Shown: positions 417 to 17,575 of the stretch, piece by piece | Numbering within the stretch: the first letter of the stretch is position 1 | Layout: the number at the start of each line of letters is the position of its first letter | Source: Acidobacteriaceae bacterium | GTDB lineage: Bacteria > Acidobacteriota > Terriglobia > Terriglobales > Acidobacteriaceae | Assembly: GCA_030039035.1 (NCBI GenBank) | Contig: JASHQQ010000292.1 | Location: forward strand, 1 to 36,496 | DNA: 36,496 nt | Direction of reading: 5' to 3' | Notes under the pieces: generated by a model | Told to the model about the DNA's origin: nothing | Databases searched by the model: none | The model's input: only the letters and a program-made list of their open reading frames with translations | Program-made: the position numbers and the translations under genes

Positions 417-1505
417 TCACAACGCCGCCGCCCCGCTCACAATCTCGATGATCTCCTTGGTGATGGCCGCCTGGCGCACGCGGTTCATGTTCAGCGTCAG
501 CGAGTCGATCATCTCCGAAGCGTTGTTGGTGGCCGAATCCATCGCCGTCATGCGCGCGGCCTGCTCGGCGGCGACTGATTCGGTCATCGCGTGGTACAGC
601 ATCGCGAAGATGTATTGCCGCAGCAGACCGTCGAAGAGTTCCTCGGCCGGCTGCTCGTAAATGTAGTCGACATTCGCCGTGCCGAACTTCTTCGCTTCCT
701 CGTCGGCCTCCTTTGTATCCGCTTCTTCCAGCGCAATCCCCGCACTGCGCGCGGCTTCGCCCGCGCGCTCGCGCTCTTCGACCGACGGCGCTTCCGCGCC
801 GGCAATCTGCTGCCCGCCAATCTCCATGATCGGCAGCAGCCGCTCTACCACCACGCGCTGCGCAATCACCGATTTGAATTCGTTGTAGACGATGTACGCG
901 GCGTCGATCTCTTCGTGGACGTAGCGATCGACGATGCTTTCGGCCAATTCGAAAACATCCTTCGTCTCCAGTTTGAGGAGCATTCCCGGATGGTCGCCGA
1001 CCACTTCGACCGAAGCCTTGCGCTCGTCGCGAACCTGGCGCTTTGCGCCGTCTTCCCCGCTCTCCTCGTGCCCGGTTTCTTCGTGAAAGACCGCCGCGGG
1101 ATAGCGCCGGCGCAACTGGTCGCGCCCCTTCTTGCCGATGGCTTCGAGGTCGATCTCGCGCTCCGCATTACCTGCGATGAACTTCAGCGCCATCTTGAGG
1201 ATGTTCGCATTGAATGCGCCGGCAAAGCCTTTGTCGCCGCTGACCACCACAAGCAGCACGCGCTTTTCTTCGCGCACGGCAAAGAGCGGATGGCGCAGGC
1301 GGCCGGTGGCCGGATCGTAGATCTCCACGCGGCGCGAGAGCGATTCGAGCACGCTCGAGATCATTTTGGCGTAAGGCCGCGCGGCCAGCGCCCGCTCCTG
1401 CGCGCGGCGCAGCTTGGCCGCGGCCACCATCTTCATGGCCCGGGTGATCTGGCGCGTGTTCTTCACGCTGCGAATGCGCCGGCGGAGATCGAGGACGTTT
1501 GCCAT
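417..1505 (-). CDS. atpG: ATP synthase F1 subunit gamma, enlarged
   Basis: Central rotor shaft of F1, coupling rotation of the c-ring to catalysis at the alpha/beta hexamer. The N-terminal helix (LRRRIRSVKNTRQITRAMKMVAAAKLRRAQ in two parts around residues 7-36) and the C-terminal helix with EQAARMTAMDSATNNA and AITKEIIEIVSGAAAL are unmistakable gamma signatures. At 362 residues it is about 70 longer than the usual 285-290. The excess lies in two charged insertions, at about residues 141-180 and 228-275. The second falls between the LLPI strand and the DYIYEQP segment, the region where plant and cyanobacterial gamma carry their regulatory insert, but there is no cysteine here. The ATG is at 1505, with GGAT about 8 nt upstream. 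A heptad repeat array ends 11 nt before the start. It is the last recognised atp gene on this strand; no beta or epsilon gene follows. Confidence 0.96.
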   Translation of the reverse strand: MANVLDLRRRIRSVKNTRQITRAMKMVAAAKLRRAQERALAARPYAKMISSVLESLSRRVEIYDPATGRLRHPLFAVREEKRVLLVVVSGDKGFAGAFNANILKMALKFIAGNAEREIDLEAIGKKGRDQLRRRYPAAVFHEETGHEESGEDGAKRQVRDERKASVEVVGDHPGMLLKLETKDVFELAESIVDRYVHEEIDAAYIVYNEFKSVIAQRVVVERLLPIMEIGGQQIAGAEAPSVEERERAGEAARSAGIALEEADTKEADEEAKKFGTANVDYIYEQPAEELFDGLLRQYIFAMLYHAMTESVAAEQAARMTAMDSATNNASEMIDSLTLNMNRVRQAAITKEIIEIVSGAAAL

Positions 1506-1515
1506 GTTCTATCCA

Positions 1516-1578
1516 GGAGTCAGGGGTCAGGGGTCAGGGGTCAGGGATCAGGGATCAGGGGTCAGGGGTCAGGGATCA
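1516..1578 (+). repeat. Heptad tandem array (9 units) between atpG and the four-helix-bundle gene
   Basis: Nine contiguous 7-mers: GGAGTCA, then GGGGTCA x3, GGGATCA x2, GGGGTCA x2, GGGATCA. The plus strand is G-rich with 3-nt spacers, a canonical G-quadruplex pattern; the atp mRNA carries the C-rich complement. The stop codon of the four-helix-bundle gene (1576-1578 on the minus strand) is the last repeat unit. The opposite orientation of the same repeat lies at 1962-2003. Confidence 0.95.
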
Positions 1579-1956
1579 GTTTTGCGATGCCTGATCTCTT
1601 ATGCGTTCCAGGATCCCGAAAATCATCTTTCCAATTTCGTGCGATAAACCTTCTGCTTCGCTGAGAAGTTTCGAGTCACCCTTCCCGAGCGCACGAGCAA
1701 TTTCAATTTGCGTTTGCAACTCGAAGTTCGAGCCCCGAGCTACGCCGAGGAACTGCCTGTATTCGCGGGTGCTCAGCCGTCCATGGCCTTCGGCGATGTT
1801 GCTCGAAATCGAAACCGCCGCGCGCCTCATCTGGCTGGACAGCCCATAGGTTTCTTCCCGTGGAAATCCTTCCGTTAAACGATAGACCGCAACCGCCATC
1901 TGAATCGACTTCTGCCAAACCACCAGATCCCGAAACGATTGGACCGCTTGCGCCAT
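1576..1956 (-). CDS. Four-helix bundle protein (23S rRNA intervening-sequence protein family) inside the atp operon
   Basis: 126 residues, starting MAQAVQSFRDLVVWQKSIQM. The FRDLVVWQK opening, the GLSSQMRRAAVSISSNIAEG core and the S-x-EYRQFLGVARGS segment are hallmarks of the small four-helix-bundle family (S23/IVP-like, related to the diversity-generating-retroelement accessory protein Avd). Family members are all-helical, form pentamers and may bind nucleic acid; the cellular role is unknown. The ATG at 1956 is chosen because everything upstream in frame is repeat array and the end of atpA in another frame. The gene sits between atpA and atpG on the same strand and is bracketed by heptad arrays in inverted orientation; its stop codon lies within one array. 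No ribosome-binding site other than the G-rich repeat is visible. This is not a normal atp operon member and looks like an inserted cassette. Confidence 0.85.
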   Translation of the reverse strand: MAQAVQSFRDLVVWQKSIQMAVAVYRLTEGFPREETYGLSSQMRRAAVSISSNIAEGHGRLSTREYRQFLGVARGSNFELQTQIEIARALGKGDSKLLSEAEGLSHEIGKMIFGILERIRDQASQN

Positions 1957-1961
1957 CGTCC

Positions 1962-2003
1962 TGACCCCTGACCCCTGACCCCTGATCCCTGATCCCTGAT
2001 CCC
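1962..2003 (+). repeat. Heptad tandem array (6 units) between the four-helix-bundle gene and atpA
   Basis: TGACCCC x3 followed by TGATCCC x3. It begins 5 nt upstream of the four-helix-bundle start and ends 5 nt after the atpA stop. In the transcript it reads GGGATCA x3, GGGGTCA x3, so it could form an RNA G-quadruplex. Alternatively it could pair with the array at 1516-1578: the central four heptads match perfectly and the outer two differ by one wobble and one mismatch. Confidence 0.95.
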
Positions 2004-2008
2004 TTCTC

Positions 2009-3667
2009 TTACGCTTTCGCTCCCGCCGGCGTCGGCTGCGCTTTCTTTGCTTCTGCCGGCGCGGGCTTCTTTGCGCCCGCGGGCCTGGCGCCGTCGCGAG
2101 CCGCCGGAGGCTGAGCACTGCCCGCGCTCTGGGCCTTGTCGGCCTTGGCCGCGTCCAGCTCGGCCTTGAAGTTCGCCTTGTATTCCTTGATGGCTTCGTT
2201 CAGGCGTTTTTTCAAATCGTCGTCGAGGGACTTCTTCTTTTCAAGGTCGGCCATCAGCGGGCCCTGCGCGGCGAAGTACTTGTGCAGGCCGGCCTCGAAA
2301 GCGACGATGTCTTCGACATTCAGGTCGTCAAGATGCCCCTGCGTTCCGGCAAACAGAGAAGTGACCTGCTGCTGCCAGGTAAGCGGCTGGAACTGCGGCT
2401 GCTTGAGCAGTTCGCTCAGGCGCTTGCCGCGATTGAGCTGCTTCTGCGTGAGCGGATCGAGGTCGCTGCCGAACTGCGAGAAGGCCGCCAGGTCGCGGTA
2501 TTGCGCAAGGTCCAGCTTGAGCGTCGCGCCTACCTGTTTGGTGGCTTTGATCGCCGCCGAAAATCCCACGCGCGACACGGAAAGCCCCACATTCACCGCC
2601 GGCCGCTGGCCGGAGTTGAAGAGATCCGTCTCGAGGTAGATCTGTCCGTCGGTAATCGAGATGACGTTGGTGGGAATGTACGCCGAAACATCGCCGGCCT
2701 GCGTTTCGATCACCGGCAGCGCCGTCAGCGAGCCGCCGCCGCGCTTGTCACTGAGTTTCGACGCGCGTTCGAGCAGACGCGAGTGGAGATAGAAGACGTC
2801 GCCGGGATAGGCTTCACGGCCCGGCGGACGGCGCAGCAGCAGCGAAATTTCGCGGTAGGCCATCGCGTGCTTGGAGAGATCGTCGTACATCACCAGCGCG
2901 TGCCGGCCCGAATCGCGGAAATACTCGCCCATGGCGCAGGCCGCATAAGGCGCGAGATAGAGCATCGGCGCCGGCTCCGACGCCGACGCCGCGACTACGA
3001 TCGTGTGTCCCATGGCGCCGTGTTCGGCAAGCGTTTGCACCACCTGCGCAATGGAGGATCGTTTCTGGCCGATGGCGCAGTAGATGCAGATCAGGTCGTT
3101 TTTCTCGTTGTTGATGATGGTGTCGAGCAGGACCGCAGTTTTGCCTGTCTGCCGGTCGCCGATGATCAGCTCGCGCTGCCCGCGGCCGATGGGGATCATG
3201 GCGTCGATCGCCTTCAGGCCGGTGGCCATCGGTTCGCGCACCGGCTGGCGGTCAACAATTCCCGGCGCCAGGCGTTCCACCGGCAGGGTGGTTGTAGTCG
3301 CGATCGGTCCCTTGTCGTCTATTGGCATCCCCAGCGAGTTCACCACGCGCCCGACCATGGCGTCGCCCACGGGCACGCTCAGGATTTTGCCCGTGCGCTT
3401 GACCTCGTCGCCTTCGCGAATCTCGGTGTAGTCGCCCATCACCACGGCGCCTACCTGATCCTCTTCCAGGCTCAGCGCCAGGCCCGAAACCCCGTGGGGA
3501 AAGCTGAGCAGTTCTCCGGCCATCACCTTGTCGAGCCCGTGAATGCGGGCGATTCCGTCGCCGAGCGACGTGATCGTCCCCACCTCGTCGACCTGCACCT
3601 TGGCGTCGTAGTTCGCGATCTGCTCGCGAAGAAGTTCCGTGATTTCGTCAGCCTTGATTTGAGCCAT
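2009..3667 (-). CDS. atpA: ATP synthase F1 subunit alpha
   Basis: Non-catalytic nucleotide-binding subunit of the F1 hexamer. It carries the Walker A loop GDRQTGKT at residues 170-177, the RELIIGD lead-in, the [11 protein letters not shown] segment and the alpha signature [13 protein letters not shown]. The N-terminal region [29 protein letters not shown] is typical of alpha. At 552 residues it is about 45 longer than usual. The extra length is a C-terminal tail rich in Ala, Lys and Pro (from about residue 505) that looks disordered. The ATG at 3667 is preceded by GAAGGA at suitable spacing. It lies in the atp operon downstream of atpH, with a 101-nt spacer that holds tandem repeats. Confidence 0.98.
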
Positions 3668-3680
3668 CTGCTTTCCTTCA

Positions 3681-3702
3681 GAGATCAGGGATCAGGGGTC
3701 AG
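3681..3702 (+). repeat. Short heptad array upstream of atpA
   Basis: Three heptads, GAGATCA, GGGATCA, GGGGTCA, in the same orientation as the array at 1516-1578. They lie in the 5' leader of atpA, ahead of its ribosome-binding site. Confidence 0.8.
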
Positions 3703-3753
3703 CATGTACGAATGGAATTCCCGTCCCGAATCCCTTTTCCCTCACCCGGTCCC

Positions 3754-3784
3754 TGGTCCCCTTGTCCCTTAGTCCCTCAGTCCC
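3754..3784 (+). repeat. Octad array overlapping the 3' end of atpH
   Basis: Units TGGTCCCC, TTGTCCC, TTAGTCCC and TCAGTCCC run from the atpH-atpA spacer into atpH. The atpH stop codon (TAA, 3769-3771) and its last residues (GLRD) are encoded by repeat units, so the repeat has replaced or extended the end of the gene. Confidence 0.8.
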
Positions 3785-4323
3785 TGCTCCGCCGCCAGCT
3801 CTTCCTTCAGTTTCTCCAGCCGGCCGCGCACCGAGCCGTCGTACACCGTGGAGCCGATGCGAACGATGGTGCCCCCGAGGATGGACTCGTCCAACTCGAA
3901 ATCGGCCGCAATGCGCGAACCAGCCAGCTTCGCCACTTCCGTTTCCAGCGATGACTGCTCCTGTTTGCCGAGCTGGCGTGCGGTCACAATCCGCACTTCC
4001 CGGATCCCCAGCCGCTCCTGCAGCGCCTTGCGCCAGGCCGTGGCCACCTCGTGCACCCCGGCGATGCGGTCGTTGTGGATGAGCACCGCAATCAGGTTGC
4101 GGAGCTCCTTCTGCATTCCCAGCTCAACGTTCATCCTGTCGAGAAATGCGATCTTCTGTTCCGAGGCGACGGCAGGATTGATGAAAAACTCGCGCAACTC
4201 CGCGCTGCCGTCCCAGGTACCGAGAAAATCGTTCCACTGCCTTTCCAGGGCGGCCGTGTCCAGTTTTCTCGACGTCACCACATCGAGAAATGCCTGTGCG
4301 TAACGATGCACGAAAGCGGCCAT
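3769..4323 (-). CDS. atpH: ATP synthase F1 subunit delta
   Basis: Peripheral stalk subunit that joins F1 to the b subunits. 184 residues, the usual size. The N-terminal helical domain (HRYAQAFLDVV, then FFINPAVASEQKIAFLDRM) and the C-terminal part (REVRIVTARQL, then FELDESILGGTIVRIGSTVYDGSVRGRLEKL) match the delta/OSCP family, including the characteristic DGSVRGRLEKL end. The ATG overlaps the atpF stop codon (TGATG), so translation is coupled to atpF. The last four codons and the stop lie inside an octad repeat. Confidence 0.96.
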   Translation of the reverse strand: MAAFVHRYAQAFLDVVTSRKLDTAALERQWNDFLGTWDGSAELREFFINPAVASEQKIAFLDRMNVELGMQKELRNLIAVLIHNDRIAGVHEVATAWRKALQERLGIREVRIVTARQLGKQEQSSLETEVAKLAGSRIAADFELDESILGGTIVRIGSTVYDGSVRGRLEKLKEELAAEQGLRD

Positions 4324-11679: not shown

Positions 11680-11769
11680 CCGATATCCACCATCTTTCCG
11701 GAGAATCGAACGTGCCCATCTTTGCCGGGCTCGATCGCCATGACATGCTCTCCTTGGCCGCTTGGTGTC

Positions 11770-11874
11770 TCAGCCCCTTAGCCCCTCAGTCCCTTAGTCC
11801 CTCAGTCCCTCAGCCCCTCAGCCCCTCAGTCCCTCAGTCCCTCAGTCCCTCAGCCCCTCAGTCCCTGCAGTCCC
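11770..11874 (+). repeat. Octad tandem array (12 units) upstream of nrdR
   Basis: Twelve contiguous 8-mers of the form T(C/T)AG(T/C)CCC from 11770 to 11865, then a degenerate ninth-type unit to 11874. The array ends 2 nt before a TACAAT box and 17 nt before the nrdR start, so it occupies the position of a -35 element. The complementary strand reads GGGACTGA repeated, a G-quadruplex-compatible spacing. Confidence 0.95.
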
Positions 11875-12375: not shown

Positions 12376-12459
12376 CAGCTCTCAGCCGTCAGCTTTCAGC
12401 TTTCAGCTCTCAGCTCTCAGCCCTCAGCCATCAGCCATCAGCTCTCAGCCATCAGCTCG
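12376..12459 (+). repeat. Heptad tandem array (12 units) after nrdR, left arm of an inverted pair
   Basis: Twelve contiguous 7-mers of the form CAGC(T/C)NT, starting 8 nt after the nrdR stop. The segment 12393-12420 is complementary to 12530-12557 with two mismatches in 28. The array fills most of the first third of the 301-nt nrdR-asd spacer. Confidence 0.9.
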
Positions 12460-12529
12460 AGACCTTAACGGGATGTATGCCGGAGATCGTCGGGATGTGA
12501 ACGAAAGAGCCCCGCCTGCGAACCTCGAA

Positions 12530-12557
12530 CTGAAAGCTGATAGCTGAAAGCTGAAAG
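12530..12557 (+). repeat. Inverted heptad units, right arm of the pair
   Basis: Four units of the form AGCTGAA/AGCTGAT in the opposite orientation to 12376-12459. Pairing would give a 28-bp stem around a loop of about 110 nt. The rest of the spacer up to asd shows no gene, only the TACACT box near 12647. Confidence 0.8.
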
Positions 12558-12646
12558 CCCGGCCCATCCCAATGCCATCGCGCACGGCGCCGAATCCTGG
12601 AATGATCGCTCGAGTGCGCCATAGACGCAGAAAACCGCCCCTCCTG

Positions 12647-13872: not shown

Positions 13873-15303
13873 ATGGGCCTGGTGGTGATGAAATTCGGCG
13901 GCACGTCGGTAGAGGATCCGGCAGCGATCGGCCGAACCGCGTCCATCGTGGCCGGACGGGTCGCCGCGGGCAAGCGCCCCGTGGTGATCGTGAGCGCCAT
14001 GTCCAAGGTCACCGACCAGTTGCTGCGCGCCGCGGGCGCCGCCGCGCAGGGCGACCGCACCGGGGCGCTCGCCATCGCCTCGCGGCTGCGTTCGCGCCAT
14101 CGCGACACGGCCTTTGCGCTGGTGAAGGATGCGGCCGCGCTTGCCAACTGGATCGAGCAGAAGTTCGACTCGCTGGACGAGATTCTGCGCGGCCTCGCGG
14201 CGATCCTCGAGCTCACGCCGCGCATCTCCGACCTGATCGTGAGCTATGGCGAGCAGATCTCCAGCCGCATGATCGCGGCGGCGTTTCGCGAGCGCGGCAT
14301 CGACGCGGCGCATGTGGACGCGCGCGAGATTATTGTCACCGATTCGCAGTACCAGAAGGCCATCCCCATCGACTCGGCCATCGACAAACGCTCCGCCGAC
14401 AAGCTGCCGCCGCTGATCAGGGAAAGCAAAGTGCCCGTGATGGGCGGCTTCATCGGCGCCAACGAGTCCGGCATTACCACCACGCTGGGTCGCGGCGGCT
14501 CCGACTTTACGGCCGCGCTGGTGGGCAGCGCCATGGGCGCCGAAGTGATCGAGATCTGGACCGACGTCGATGGCATCATGACCTGCGACCCGCGCGTTTG
14601 CGCCGACGCGCTGCGCGTCAAGGTCGTCAGTTTTGAAGAGGCGGCGGAGTTGGCCTACTTCGGCGCCAAGGTGCTGCATCCGGCCACGATTCTGCCGGCC
14701 GTGAAGAAGAACATTCCCGTGCTGGTGCTCAACAGCCGCAACGCCGCCTGCGAGGGCACGCGCATCATCTCGCTGCCGCCGCGCTGCAAGAGCCCGTTCA
14801 AGTCCATCGCGGTGAAGAAGAAGCTGAGCATTATCGATGTGGTCGCCAGCCGCATGCTGATGACGCACGGCTATCTGAAGCAGATCTTCGATATCTTCGA
14901 CAAGCATATGTGCCCGGTCGACATGGTTTCGACCAGCGAGGTTTCCGTTTCGCTCACCGTCGACTCGAACGAGAAGCTGCCCGCCATTGCCGCCGACCTG
15001 AGCCGCCTCGCCGACGTGAAATACGAGGGCCGCAAGGCGCTGGTCTGCCTTGTCGGCGATGACATCCGCGGCAAGAGCGGCATGGCCGCACAGTTATTCG
15101 CGGCCATCCGGCATATCAACGTGCGCATGATCTCGCAGGGCGCCAGCGAAATCAACATGAGCTTCATGATCGAAGAGGACGACGCCGACGAGGCCGTGCG
15201 CTCGCTCCACGCCGCATTCTTCCAGGATCCCGATCCGGATATCTTCGATGTGGAAGCGAGAAAGCAACTGACGCAAAGCGAACAGTTGACAGCGGGGAGC
15301 TGA
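13873..15303 (+). CDS. lysC: Aspartate kinase
   Basis: Phosphorylates aspartate, the first committed step of the aspartate pathway. 476 residues from the ATG at 13873, chosen because GAGGGG lies 8 nt upstream and the family starts just before the KFGGTS motif (residues 7-12). The kinase domain includes GGFIGANESGITTTLGRGGSD (in two parts, about 196-216) and EIWTDVDGIMTCDPR. Two ACT-type regulatory segments follow (MVSTSEVSVSLTVDS and ISQGASEINMSFMIEEDD), so feedback inhibition by an end product is expected. The last residues (TQSEQLTAGS) are encoded by GCTGACAGC-like repeat DNA, so the tail may vary between strains. Sits between asd and dapB. Confidence 0.96.
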   Translation: MGLVVMKFGGTSVEDPAAIGRTASIVAGRVAAGKRPVVIVSAMSKVTDQLLRAAGAAAQGDRTGALAIASRLRSRHRDTAFALVKDAAALANWIEQKFDSLDEILRGLAAILELTPRISDLIVSYGEQISSRMIAAAFRERGIDAAHVDAREIIVTDSQYQKAIPIDSAIDKRSADKLPPLIRESKVPVMGGFIGANESGITTTLGRGGSDFTAALVGSAMGAEVIEIWTDVDGIMTCDPRVCADALRVKVVSFEEAAELAYFGAKVLHPATILPAVKKNIPVLVLNSRNAACEGTRIISLPPRCKSPFKSIAVKKKLSIIDVVASRMLMTHGYLKQIFDIFDKHMCPVDMVSTSEVSVSLTVDSNEKLPAIAADLSRLADVKYEGRKALVCLVGDDIRGKSGMAAQLFAAIRHINVRMISQGASEINMSFMIEEDDADEAVRSLHAAFFQDPDPDIFDVEARKQLTQSEQLTAGS

Positions 15304-15325
15304 CAGCATGCAGCAGACAGCAAAG
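15295..15325 (+). repeat. Imperfect GCTGACAGCA-type units at the 3' end of lysC
   Basis: GGGGAGCTGACAGCATGCAG and following units overlap the lysC stop. They are roughly complementary to the segment 15443-15469 (GTCGGCTGTCTGCTGTAAGC) before dapB, giving another inverted pair around a spacer. Confidence 0.5.
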
Positions 15326-15385
15326 AGCTGACGACCACCAATCTCTGTTCCCTGTTCCCTTTCCTCAGTTCTCTGACCCTGCCCC

Positions 15386-15441
15386 TGATCCCTGATCCCT
15401 GATCCCTGCTCTCTGCTCTCTGCTCTCTGCTCTCTGAGCCC
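15386..15441 (+). repeat. Heptad tandem array (8 units) upstream of dapB
   Basis: TGATCCC x3, TGCTCTC x4, TGAGCCC. The first units are identical to those between atpA and the four-helix-bundle gene at 1983-2003. Confidence 0.9.
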
Positions 15442-15469
15442 TGTCGGCTGTCTGCTGTAAGCTGTCCCC

Positions 15470-17494: not shown

Positions 17495-17566
17495 TGCGTC
17501 CCTTCGTCCCTCAGTCCCTCAGTCCCTTAGTCCCTCAGTCCCTTCGTCCCTTCGTCCCTTGTTCCC
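17495..17566 (+). repeat. Octad tandem array (9 units) upstream of the sigma-factor gene
   Basis: Nine contiguous 8-mers of the form T(T/C)(C/A)GTCCC. On the transcript strand they read GGGACGAA or GGGACTGA. They occupy nearly all of the 99-nt spacer between the AhpD-like gene and the sigma gene. Confidence 0.95.
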
Positions 17567-17575
17567 TCCGCAAGC

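Follow-up and report, generated by a model that had tools for sequence, protein, structure and literature searches.

Positions 1516–2003 of the window—the whole stretch of 36,496 nt of Acidobacteriaceae DNA analyzed here, which is one contig of a host assembly of 5.9 Mb in 404 contigs—are likely a small mobile element. It would consist of a four-helix-bundle gene and of inverted arrays of short repeats as its ends, which the encoded protein most likely recognizes, presumably as a ring. The arrays and the gene appear to travel as a unit and to diverge in step. The gene belongs to the PF05635 family (23S_rRNA_IVP), for which framing by inverted short arrays is confirmed as the usual arrangement; the architecture is general.

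The element between atpA and atpG

The element occupies the gap between two open reading frames on the minus strand, 2009–3667 and 417–1505, which we take to be atpA, the upstream operon neighbor, and atpG, the downstream one; both served as queries in relatives. The four-helix-bundle gene (1576–1956, minus strand) starts with an ATG at 1956 and comprises 126 codons and a TGA stop. Its 3′-side array (1516–1578, minus strand) features nine heptads, which in the plus reading are GGAGTCA followed by eight exact GGG(A/G)TCA units at 1523–1578 and in the sense of the gene read TGAYCCC. The 5′-side array (1962–2003, minus strand) features six heptads, GGGRTCA in the sense of the gene, and is inverted with respect to 1516–1578.

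The original prediction had described these inverted arrays around the gene, a pairing over 42 nt with one wobble and one mismatch in the outer units, and a stop codon in the last repeat unit. All of this can be appreciated in the sequence. The best pairing extends over 44 nt, with the arms 1536–1579 and 1961–2004 enclosing a 381-nt loop (element core 1536–2004, minus strand); the arms differ at two positions, which as RNA are, judged by eye, one A–C mismatch and one G–U wobble in the outer units. The TGA stop is the complement of 1576–1578, inside the last unit of the array. As judged by eye, the last unit of the 5′-side array could act as the Shine–Dalgarno sequence of the gene. The RNA fold of 1506–2008 has a free energy of −236.6 kcal/mol (z −8.5), and none of 100 shuffles was equally stable. 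The loop carries the PF05635 gene only; it contains no transposase gene and has no space for a second gene. An Rfam scan of the window gave no match, and the element is not inside an rRNA gene. Excision is not required here since the element lies between genes and not within one. The AtpG of the window (417–1505) has 362 residues, which exceeds the usual length, and apparently carries internal insertions.

Protein family and fold

The window protein matches PF05635 with an E-value of 2.7e-36 and 124.4 bits (cut-off 33.8) and TIGR02436 with 117 (cut-off 24). Its closest named relatives are from Acidobacteriaceae, including Terracidiphilus, Occallatibacter, and Granulicella. The AF2 monomer model (pLDDT 94.9) features the fold of XCC0516, with a TM score of 0.86 to 2gsc_B; it also matches 2rld (TM 0.72–0.77) and, more weakly, the Avd structure 4dwl (Foldseek TM 0.74, E 7.5e-3). 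The solved family member 2gsc comes from Xanthomonas campestris, and the Xanthomonas protein is described as a homopentamer in the accessible part of PMC4990558 and in a reference title of PMC3936711. Across 201 proteins, a set that includes some duplicates, the residues Q34, N45, E48, and E71 (core numbering) reach at least 99% conservation.

Bracketing by inverted arrays across the family

The host genome holds six PF05635 matches, two of which are interrupted by a stop (L005 and L006). As judged from the flanks, inverted arrays surround five of the six copies, each with its own unit: GGGATCA in the window, AGCTTCT between genes resembling sucC and sucD, the 9-mer AGCGGAGTT between genes resembling pheS and pheT (all named by eye), the octad AGGGACTG, and GTTCATG. 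In the sixth copy, L006, the array is found chiefly on one side. In 35 loci of the host genome and 29 relatives, the arm match averaged 22.8 within a locus and 9.9 across different loci, and the upstream flank's own partner outscored every other in 25 of the 35.

A search for other four-helix genes between inverted arrays, as had been suggested, was carried out with a fixed arm detector (ungapped inverted arms on either side of the gene, +1/−1.5). After removal of duplicates, the set contained 212 distinct PF05635 loci (134 from Acidobacteriota and 78 others), and 180 of these are bracketed; among the shifted control windows, 25 of 389 are. With the score threshold raised to 16, the numbers are 155 of 212 and 2 of 389. 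By group, 116 of 134 Acidobacteriota loci and 64 of 78 other loci are bracketed. The individual sets agree with this tally. In the first set, 32 of 35 loci had arms, compared with 5 of 66 control windows at a shift of 850 nt; in a further set, 54 of 62 loci had them (controls 4 of 114). In 80 genome contigs and eight plasmids, they occur at 50 of 57 Acidobacteriota loci (controls 4 of 103) and 25 of 31 others (controls 4 of 57); in twelve whole genomes of other groups, they occur at 23 of 30 loci (controls 3 of 56), some of which overlap earlier sets. Among Gammaproteobacteria, 77 of 369 genomes have a PF05635 match, 71 of them above the cut-off; 25 of 29 loci are bracketed (controls 4 of 51), as are 9 of 11 additional copies outside the tally of 212. 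About 30 loci per set were taken from the matches of the twelve genomes and of the Gammaproteobacteria, and weaker or partial matches of the relatives were left out.

The loci are not independent, since several derive from the same genome or the same ancestral site; loci from beyond Acidobacteriota answer this point, although they were mostly chosen as best family matches. Chance pairing is ruled out by the shifted-window and cross-locus controls and by shuffles, and an oddity of one genus by the bracketed loci outside Acidobacteriota. Detectable arms are absent from 32 of the 212 loci; in some loci scored as misses (L236, L243, L250, and L315), short inverted heptads are visible by eye. Eleven arm-less loci, scanned against Rfam with up to about 1.5 kb on each side, gave no match and hence no rRNA-gene location. 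No PF05635 match was found in phages.

Array anatomy

In the 180 bracketed loci, the unit measures 7 nt in 141, 8 nt in 31, 9 nt in 7, and 6 nt in one, with a median loop of 411 nt and a median arm of 31 nt. The stop codon of the gene lies within the downstream arm in 68 of them. The word of the unit varies between loci and agrees between both arms of one locus; the heptad consensus is YAGKKRY (upstream arm, in the sense of the gene). A phased AG that occupies at least 75% of the units was scored in 54 of the 60 heptad loci from relatives, compared with 43% of column-permuted arms, and in 19 of 21 heptad loci from other groups, compared with 39%; the phase was chosen to maximize AG in real and permuted arms alike, and only heptad loci were used. 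An automatic label assigned 149 of 181 loci to an AG-type, 10 to a GAA-type, and 22 to neither. In a set that includes some duplicate loci, stops in all three frames occur in 50 of 207 upstream arms, compared with 13.6 in shuffled arms. A separate observation concerns L367 (1500–3646, genome G199, of the class of G064), where a distance of 1.5 kb separates two four-helix elements; the heptads of one are AG-type and those of the other GAA-type.

Array type tracks the protein

As judged by sequence comparison, arrays and proteins diverge together. Over 3655 pairs of 86 loci, the share of alike arrays climbs with protein identity. At unrelated sites—locus pairs without detected flank homology—arrays are alike in 10 of 14 pairs at 80% identity or more, 21 of 60 at 75–80%, 25 of 109 at 70–75%, 10 of 126 at 65–70%, 11 of 607 at 55–65%, and 12 of 2638 below 55%. 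Since some flanks reach contig ends and copies of one site are counted many times, the analysis was repeated on the 81 of the 86 loci in which each arm is followed by 500 nt or more of flank, and the copies of one site were merged. Alike site pairs then number 7 of 8 at 80% or more, 16 of 37 at 75–80%, 15 of 53 at 70–75%, 5 of 56 at 65–70%, 4 of 207 at 55–65%, and 6 of 1006 below 55% (11 of 2386 when counted as pairs). Since 21 of 37 site pairs are unlike even at 75–80% identity, the arrays change faster than the protein.

Within genomes, only two of 104 pairs attain 80% protein identity; the arrays of these two, at 80–81%, are alike, but those of the two pairs at 78–79% are unlike. For unit length (177 loci), 18 changes are required on a FastTree protein tree, whereas none of 300 shuffles needs fewer than 29; for the AG/GAA type (159 loci), the signal is weak, with 7 changes compared with at least 8 in shuffles. 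Units also drift at one site—TAGCTTC and CAGCTTT types both occur among the copies at the sucC–sucD-like site.

Site occupancy and gene-less hairpins

In 30 genomes of the genus, host included, the four-helix gene is present between atpA and atpG in 5 and absent in 25. The junction hence exists in both states, and the view of the gene as a cassette is borne out at this site. In the material examined, the gene is not fixed at the site without repeats (at genus level), nor do the repeats lie at random around such genes, the two outcomes that had been named as speaking against a cassette. Of the gene-bearing loci, L043 has an internal stop, and the upstream arm of L057 lies beyond the contig end. 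Among the gene-less gaps, 5 are bare (8–9 nt), 2 measure 30–31 nt, and 18 are longer. An inverted pair scoring at least 10 is found in 16 of these 18, mostly formed by heptads of other types with loops of 3–83 nt; two of the 16, L051 and L061, are no clear heptad pairs, and L052 and L062 are below the score. One gene-less gap, L046, carries the GGGATCA-like type of the gene-bearing gaps. Four-helix matches are also found about 1.7 kb from atpG in two genomes (G001:C13:93600, that is L012, and G015:C24:51220-51533), a distance that would put them on the far side of atpA, probably a second spot in the operon; L012 has arms, and the G015 match is split in two pieces. G015 also has a second atpG match, which was left out of the comparison.

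Two further sites were followed in 10 genomes each, yielding 9 orthologous loci for site A and 7 for site B. By eye, relatives of the gene-bearing genome show short bare gaps of about 6–30 nt at both sites, other relatives hold gene-less hairpins of different types at that position, and three relatives carry arrays with other long sequence at site A. Both occupied and empty orthologous sites, as looked for in a mobile element, were found at all three sites. The closest pair of genomes shares 94% DNA identity at atp, so that no insertion was caught between near-identical genomes and the polymorphism could be an old insertion followed by loss; no target-site duplication was resolved at the junctions compared, which are too diverged. 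Array-bearing gaps with additional inserted inverted repeats or long unrelated spacers are seen in L266, L267, L269, and L061.

The elements occupy tight intergenic gaps, mostly in sense orientation. According to codon-model gene calls in 97 loci, 79 of 88 upstream neighbors and 77 of 93 downstream neighbors share the direction of the gene, and the arm starts a median of 7 nt past the upstream stop codon. Outside Acidobacteriota, a rougher method gave 42 of 55 upstream and 51 of 59 downstream, with the rest of the 78 loci uncalled. Antisense orientation with respect to both neighbors is seen in three of the seven annotated copies on cyanobacterial plasmids.

Gene-less hairpins of periodic arrays are widespread in these genomes. 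Hairpins of periodic arrays, gene-bearing ones included, were counted in three samples: 10 in 267 kb of the host genome (four contigs picked for carrying the gene), 4 in 400 kb of G009, and 7 in 20 stretches of relatives with a total of 396 kb. Shuffled sequence contained none. Outside the atpA–atpG gaps, gene-less hairpins occur at about 1–2 per 100 kb. Loops longer than 300 nt were found in four of the hairpins, each of them a four-helix locus, and the loops of the others measure 21–191 nt; in the surveyed stretches and for loops up to 700 nt, no other cargo was found. The window itself carries a gene-less hairpin of CAGCTTT-type heptads with a loop of about 109 nt (12376–12558) and a gene-less TAGCTTC-type hairpin with a 61-nt loop at the contig end (36363–36491). 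At 15287–15466, mixed heptad arrays of CAGCAGA and CTGATCC types are inverted in part, and at 376–411, 3678–3790, 11769–11874, and 17498–17570, short tandem arrays, mostly of GTCCCTYA-like octads, have no clear inverted partner.

Alternative origins of the arrays

The abundance of gene-less hairpins, in most of the longer atp gaps as well as elsewhere in the genomes, would also be expected if array hairpins pre-existed independently in intercistronic gaps and the four-helix gene entered the loops of those arrays that match its protein, and L046 with its shared type would fit this as well. This reading is unlikely. At sites A and B, the relatives show other array types or bare gaps and, by eye, no same-type hairpin; array type tracks the protein across unrelated sites; and the long loops surveyed hold the four-helix gene and no other cargo. 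Insertion at pre-existing heptads, as the original prediction had it, is for these reasons, and in view of the bare 8–9-nt gaps at the atp site, not favored over arrays that arrive with the gene.

Slippage occurs in bacteria, and the arrays might have arisen in place around a gene acquired by ordinary gene transfer, with the arms matched by template switching and with selection for an insulating stem and for stops in all frames. The variation of unit copies inside arrays, the drift of units at the sucC–sucD-like site, and the excess of all-frame stops in upstream arms agree with such a course. It is improbable all the same, as it leaves unexplained both the alike arrays at unrelated sites with alike proteins and the phased AG in distant phyla.

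Reverse transcriptases

No RVT_1 match was found in the host genome (86% complete). RVT_1 is present in 20 of 44 genomes with a PF05635 gene and in 6 of 16 without one, and G057, which is 96% complete and has 10 PF05635 matches, has none. A reverse transcriptase as the partner was rejected on this lack of association across the 60 genomes. A distant Avd-like gene occurs in ten copies in genome G400 (L357–L366), with 299–300 of 300 nt identical in the core, and is followed by an apparent reverse transcriptase gene (by eye, one copy); no bracketing arms were found in the single copy checked. This set is perhaps a multi-copy retroelement. That the unit of the window is an RNA element, cut from the operon transcript at the stem like rRNA intervening sequences and possibly spread via a reverse transcriptase in trans, would suit the family and stem architecture shared with these sequences (PMC4990558, accessible part), the sense orientation in operons, and the very stable stem, but it is highly improbable given the RVT_1 counts, the ten matches in G057 without RVT_1, the antisense copies, and the arm-less G400 gene.

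Proposed mechanism

For a mobile element with its own array ends, the following course can be envisaged. The four-helix protein most likely recognizes the arrays, one subunit per unit; we infer this from the way arrays and proteins covary and from the ring that the five subunits of the solved relative XCC0516 form. A precedent for one subunit reading one repeat is TRAP. The protein would read a phased YAG followed by a variable N4, and its substrate would be either the DNA ends or a hairpin formed by RNA or by a single strand. The element would settle a few bases past an operon gene's stop codon, mostly in the sense direction, and would thus be transcribed along with the operon while every gene stays intact. 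In slightly more than a third of cases, the stop codon of the element's own gene comes from the array. The gene-less hairpins probably arose from complete elements by deletion, or are relatives mobilized in trans.

Extended to the family, the reading is tentative, and we hold it with less than even confidence: PF05635 genes across bacteria may be the cores of an unrecognized class of transposase-free mobile elements. The class would be marked by a ring that reads inverted YAG-N4 heptad arrays and by array words that each lineage retains along with its protein; rRNA intervening sequences, Avd, and orphan heptad hairpins would descend from it. If the arrays are element ends, many phyla host a minimal element that moves between operons and has no known transposase, and its binding code, the correspondence of array word and protein, might be legible from sequence alone. 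This would give a testable meaning to a family named merely after some rRNA genes and to heptad arrays reported separately in several bacterial groups.

The neighborhood of cas genes is a case in point. PF05635 genes have been listed as cas companions, with 18 in cas loci in the accessible part of PMC3936711. Insertion into operon gaps would explain cas neighbors, and the published co-occurrence may reflect insertion, which is a warning on guilt by association. On a plasmid of Pseudanabaena galeata (L229, 1513–1872), the genes cas6 and cas4 enclose a four-helix gene that has heptad arms.

Comparison with known systems

Two parts of the picture are already in print, namely the inverted heptad pairs of Xanthomonas (PMC4692102) and the stems of rRNA intervening sequences (PMC4990558), both as given in the accessible parts of these papers. 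A link between PF05635 and inverted arrays was not found among the matches listed for the open-access literature, a scope outside which most subscription journals and bioRxiv lie. The class of putatively mobile elements is judged new, since the unit lies outside rRNA genes and neither a transposase nor a reverse transcriptase was found.

The rRNA intervening sequences (S23 or IVP frame) share with the element the PF05635 family, a unit of about 0.4 kb, and complementary, stem-forming ends, as far as described in the accessible part of PMC4990558, where the intervening sequence is termed a selfish element. In contrast to them, the unit of the window lies between protein genes, and its ends are tandem short units of a locus-specific type that tracks the protein. 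Excision from the transcript by RNase III is a further mark of intervening sequences.

The heptad arrays of Xanthomonas and Nostoc (GGGAATC and GGGGAYT) resemble the element arrays in consisting of heptad tandem units between aligned genes, with inverted pairs, 70 of which are reported in Xcc (PMC4692102). In the accessible part of that paper, they are stated to be generally not associated with mobile elements, and S23 or a helix bundle goes unmentioned. A link of the element to the GGGAATC repeats was not found, and among the 29 Gammaproteobacteria loci none encodes a protein near 2gsc (best 54 of 87 residues). Comparable heptad tandem units are the STRRs of cyanobacteria.

Avd of diversity-generating retroelements has a similar fold, as judged by the match to 4dwl, and the similarity of Avd and PF05635 is noted in the accessible part of PMC10053308. 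The element differs from these retroelements in that its host genome is without an RVT_1 match and its protein scores far below the cut-off of the DGR Avd profile (16.1 bits, cut-off 80).

A parallel in layout is found in the RAYT/REP/REPIN systems, in which a protein gene is framed by inverted repeats and abundant gene-less copies occur in the genome. The element likewise features a protein gene within inverted repeated ends and many short gene-less copies. It differs in having no HUH/Y1 transposase, the four-helix bundle being its sole protein, and in having ends that are tandem arrays of 7–9-nt units instead of REP palindromes.
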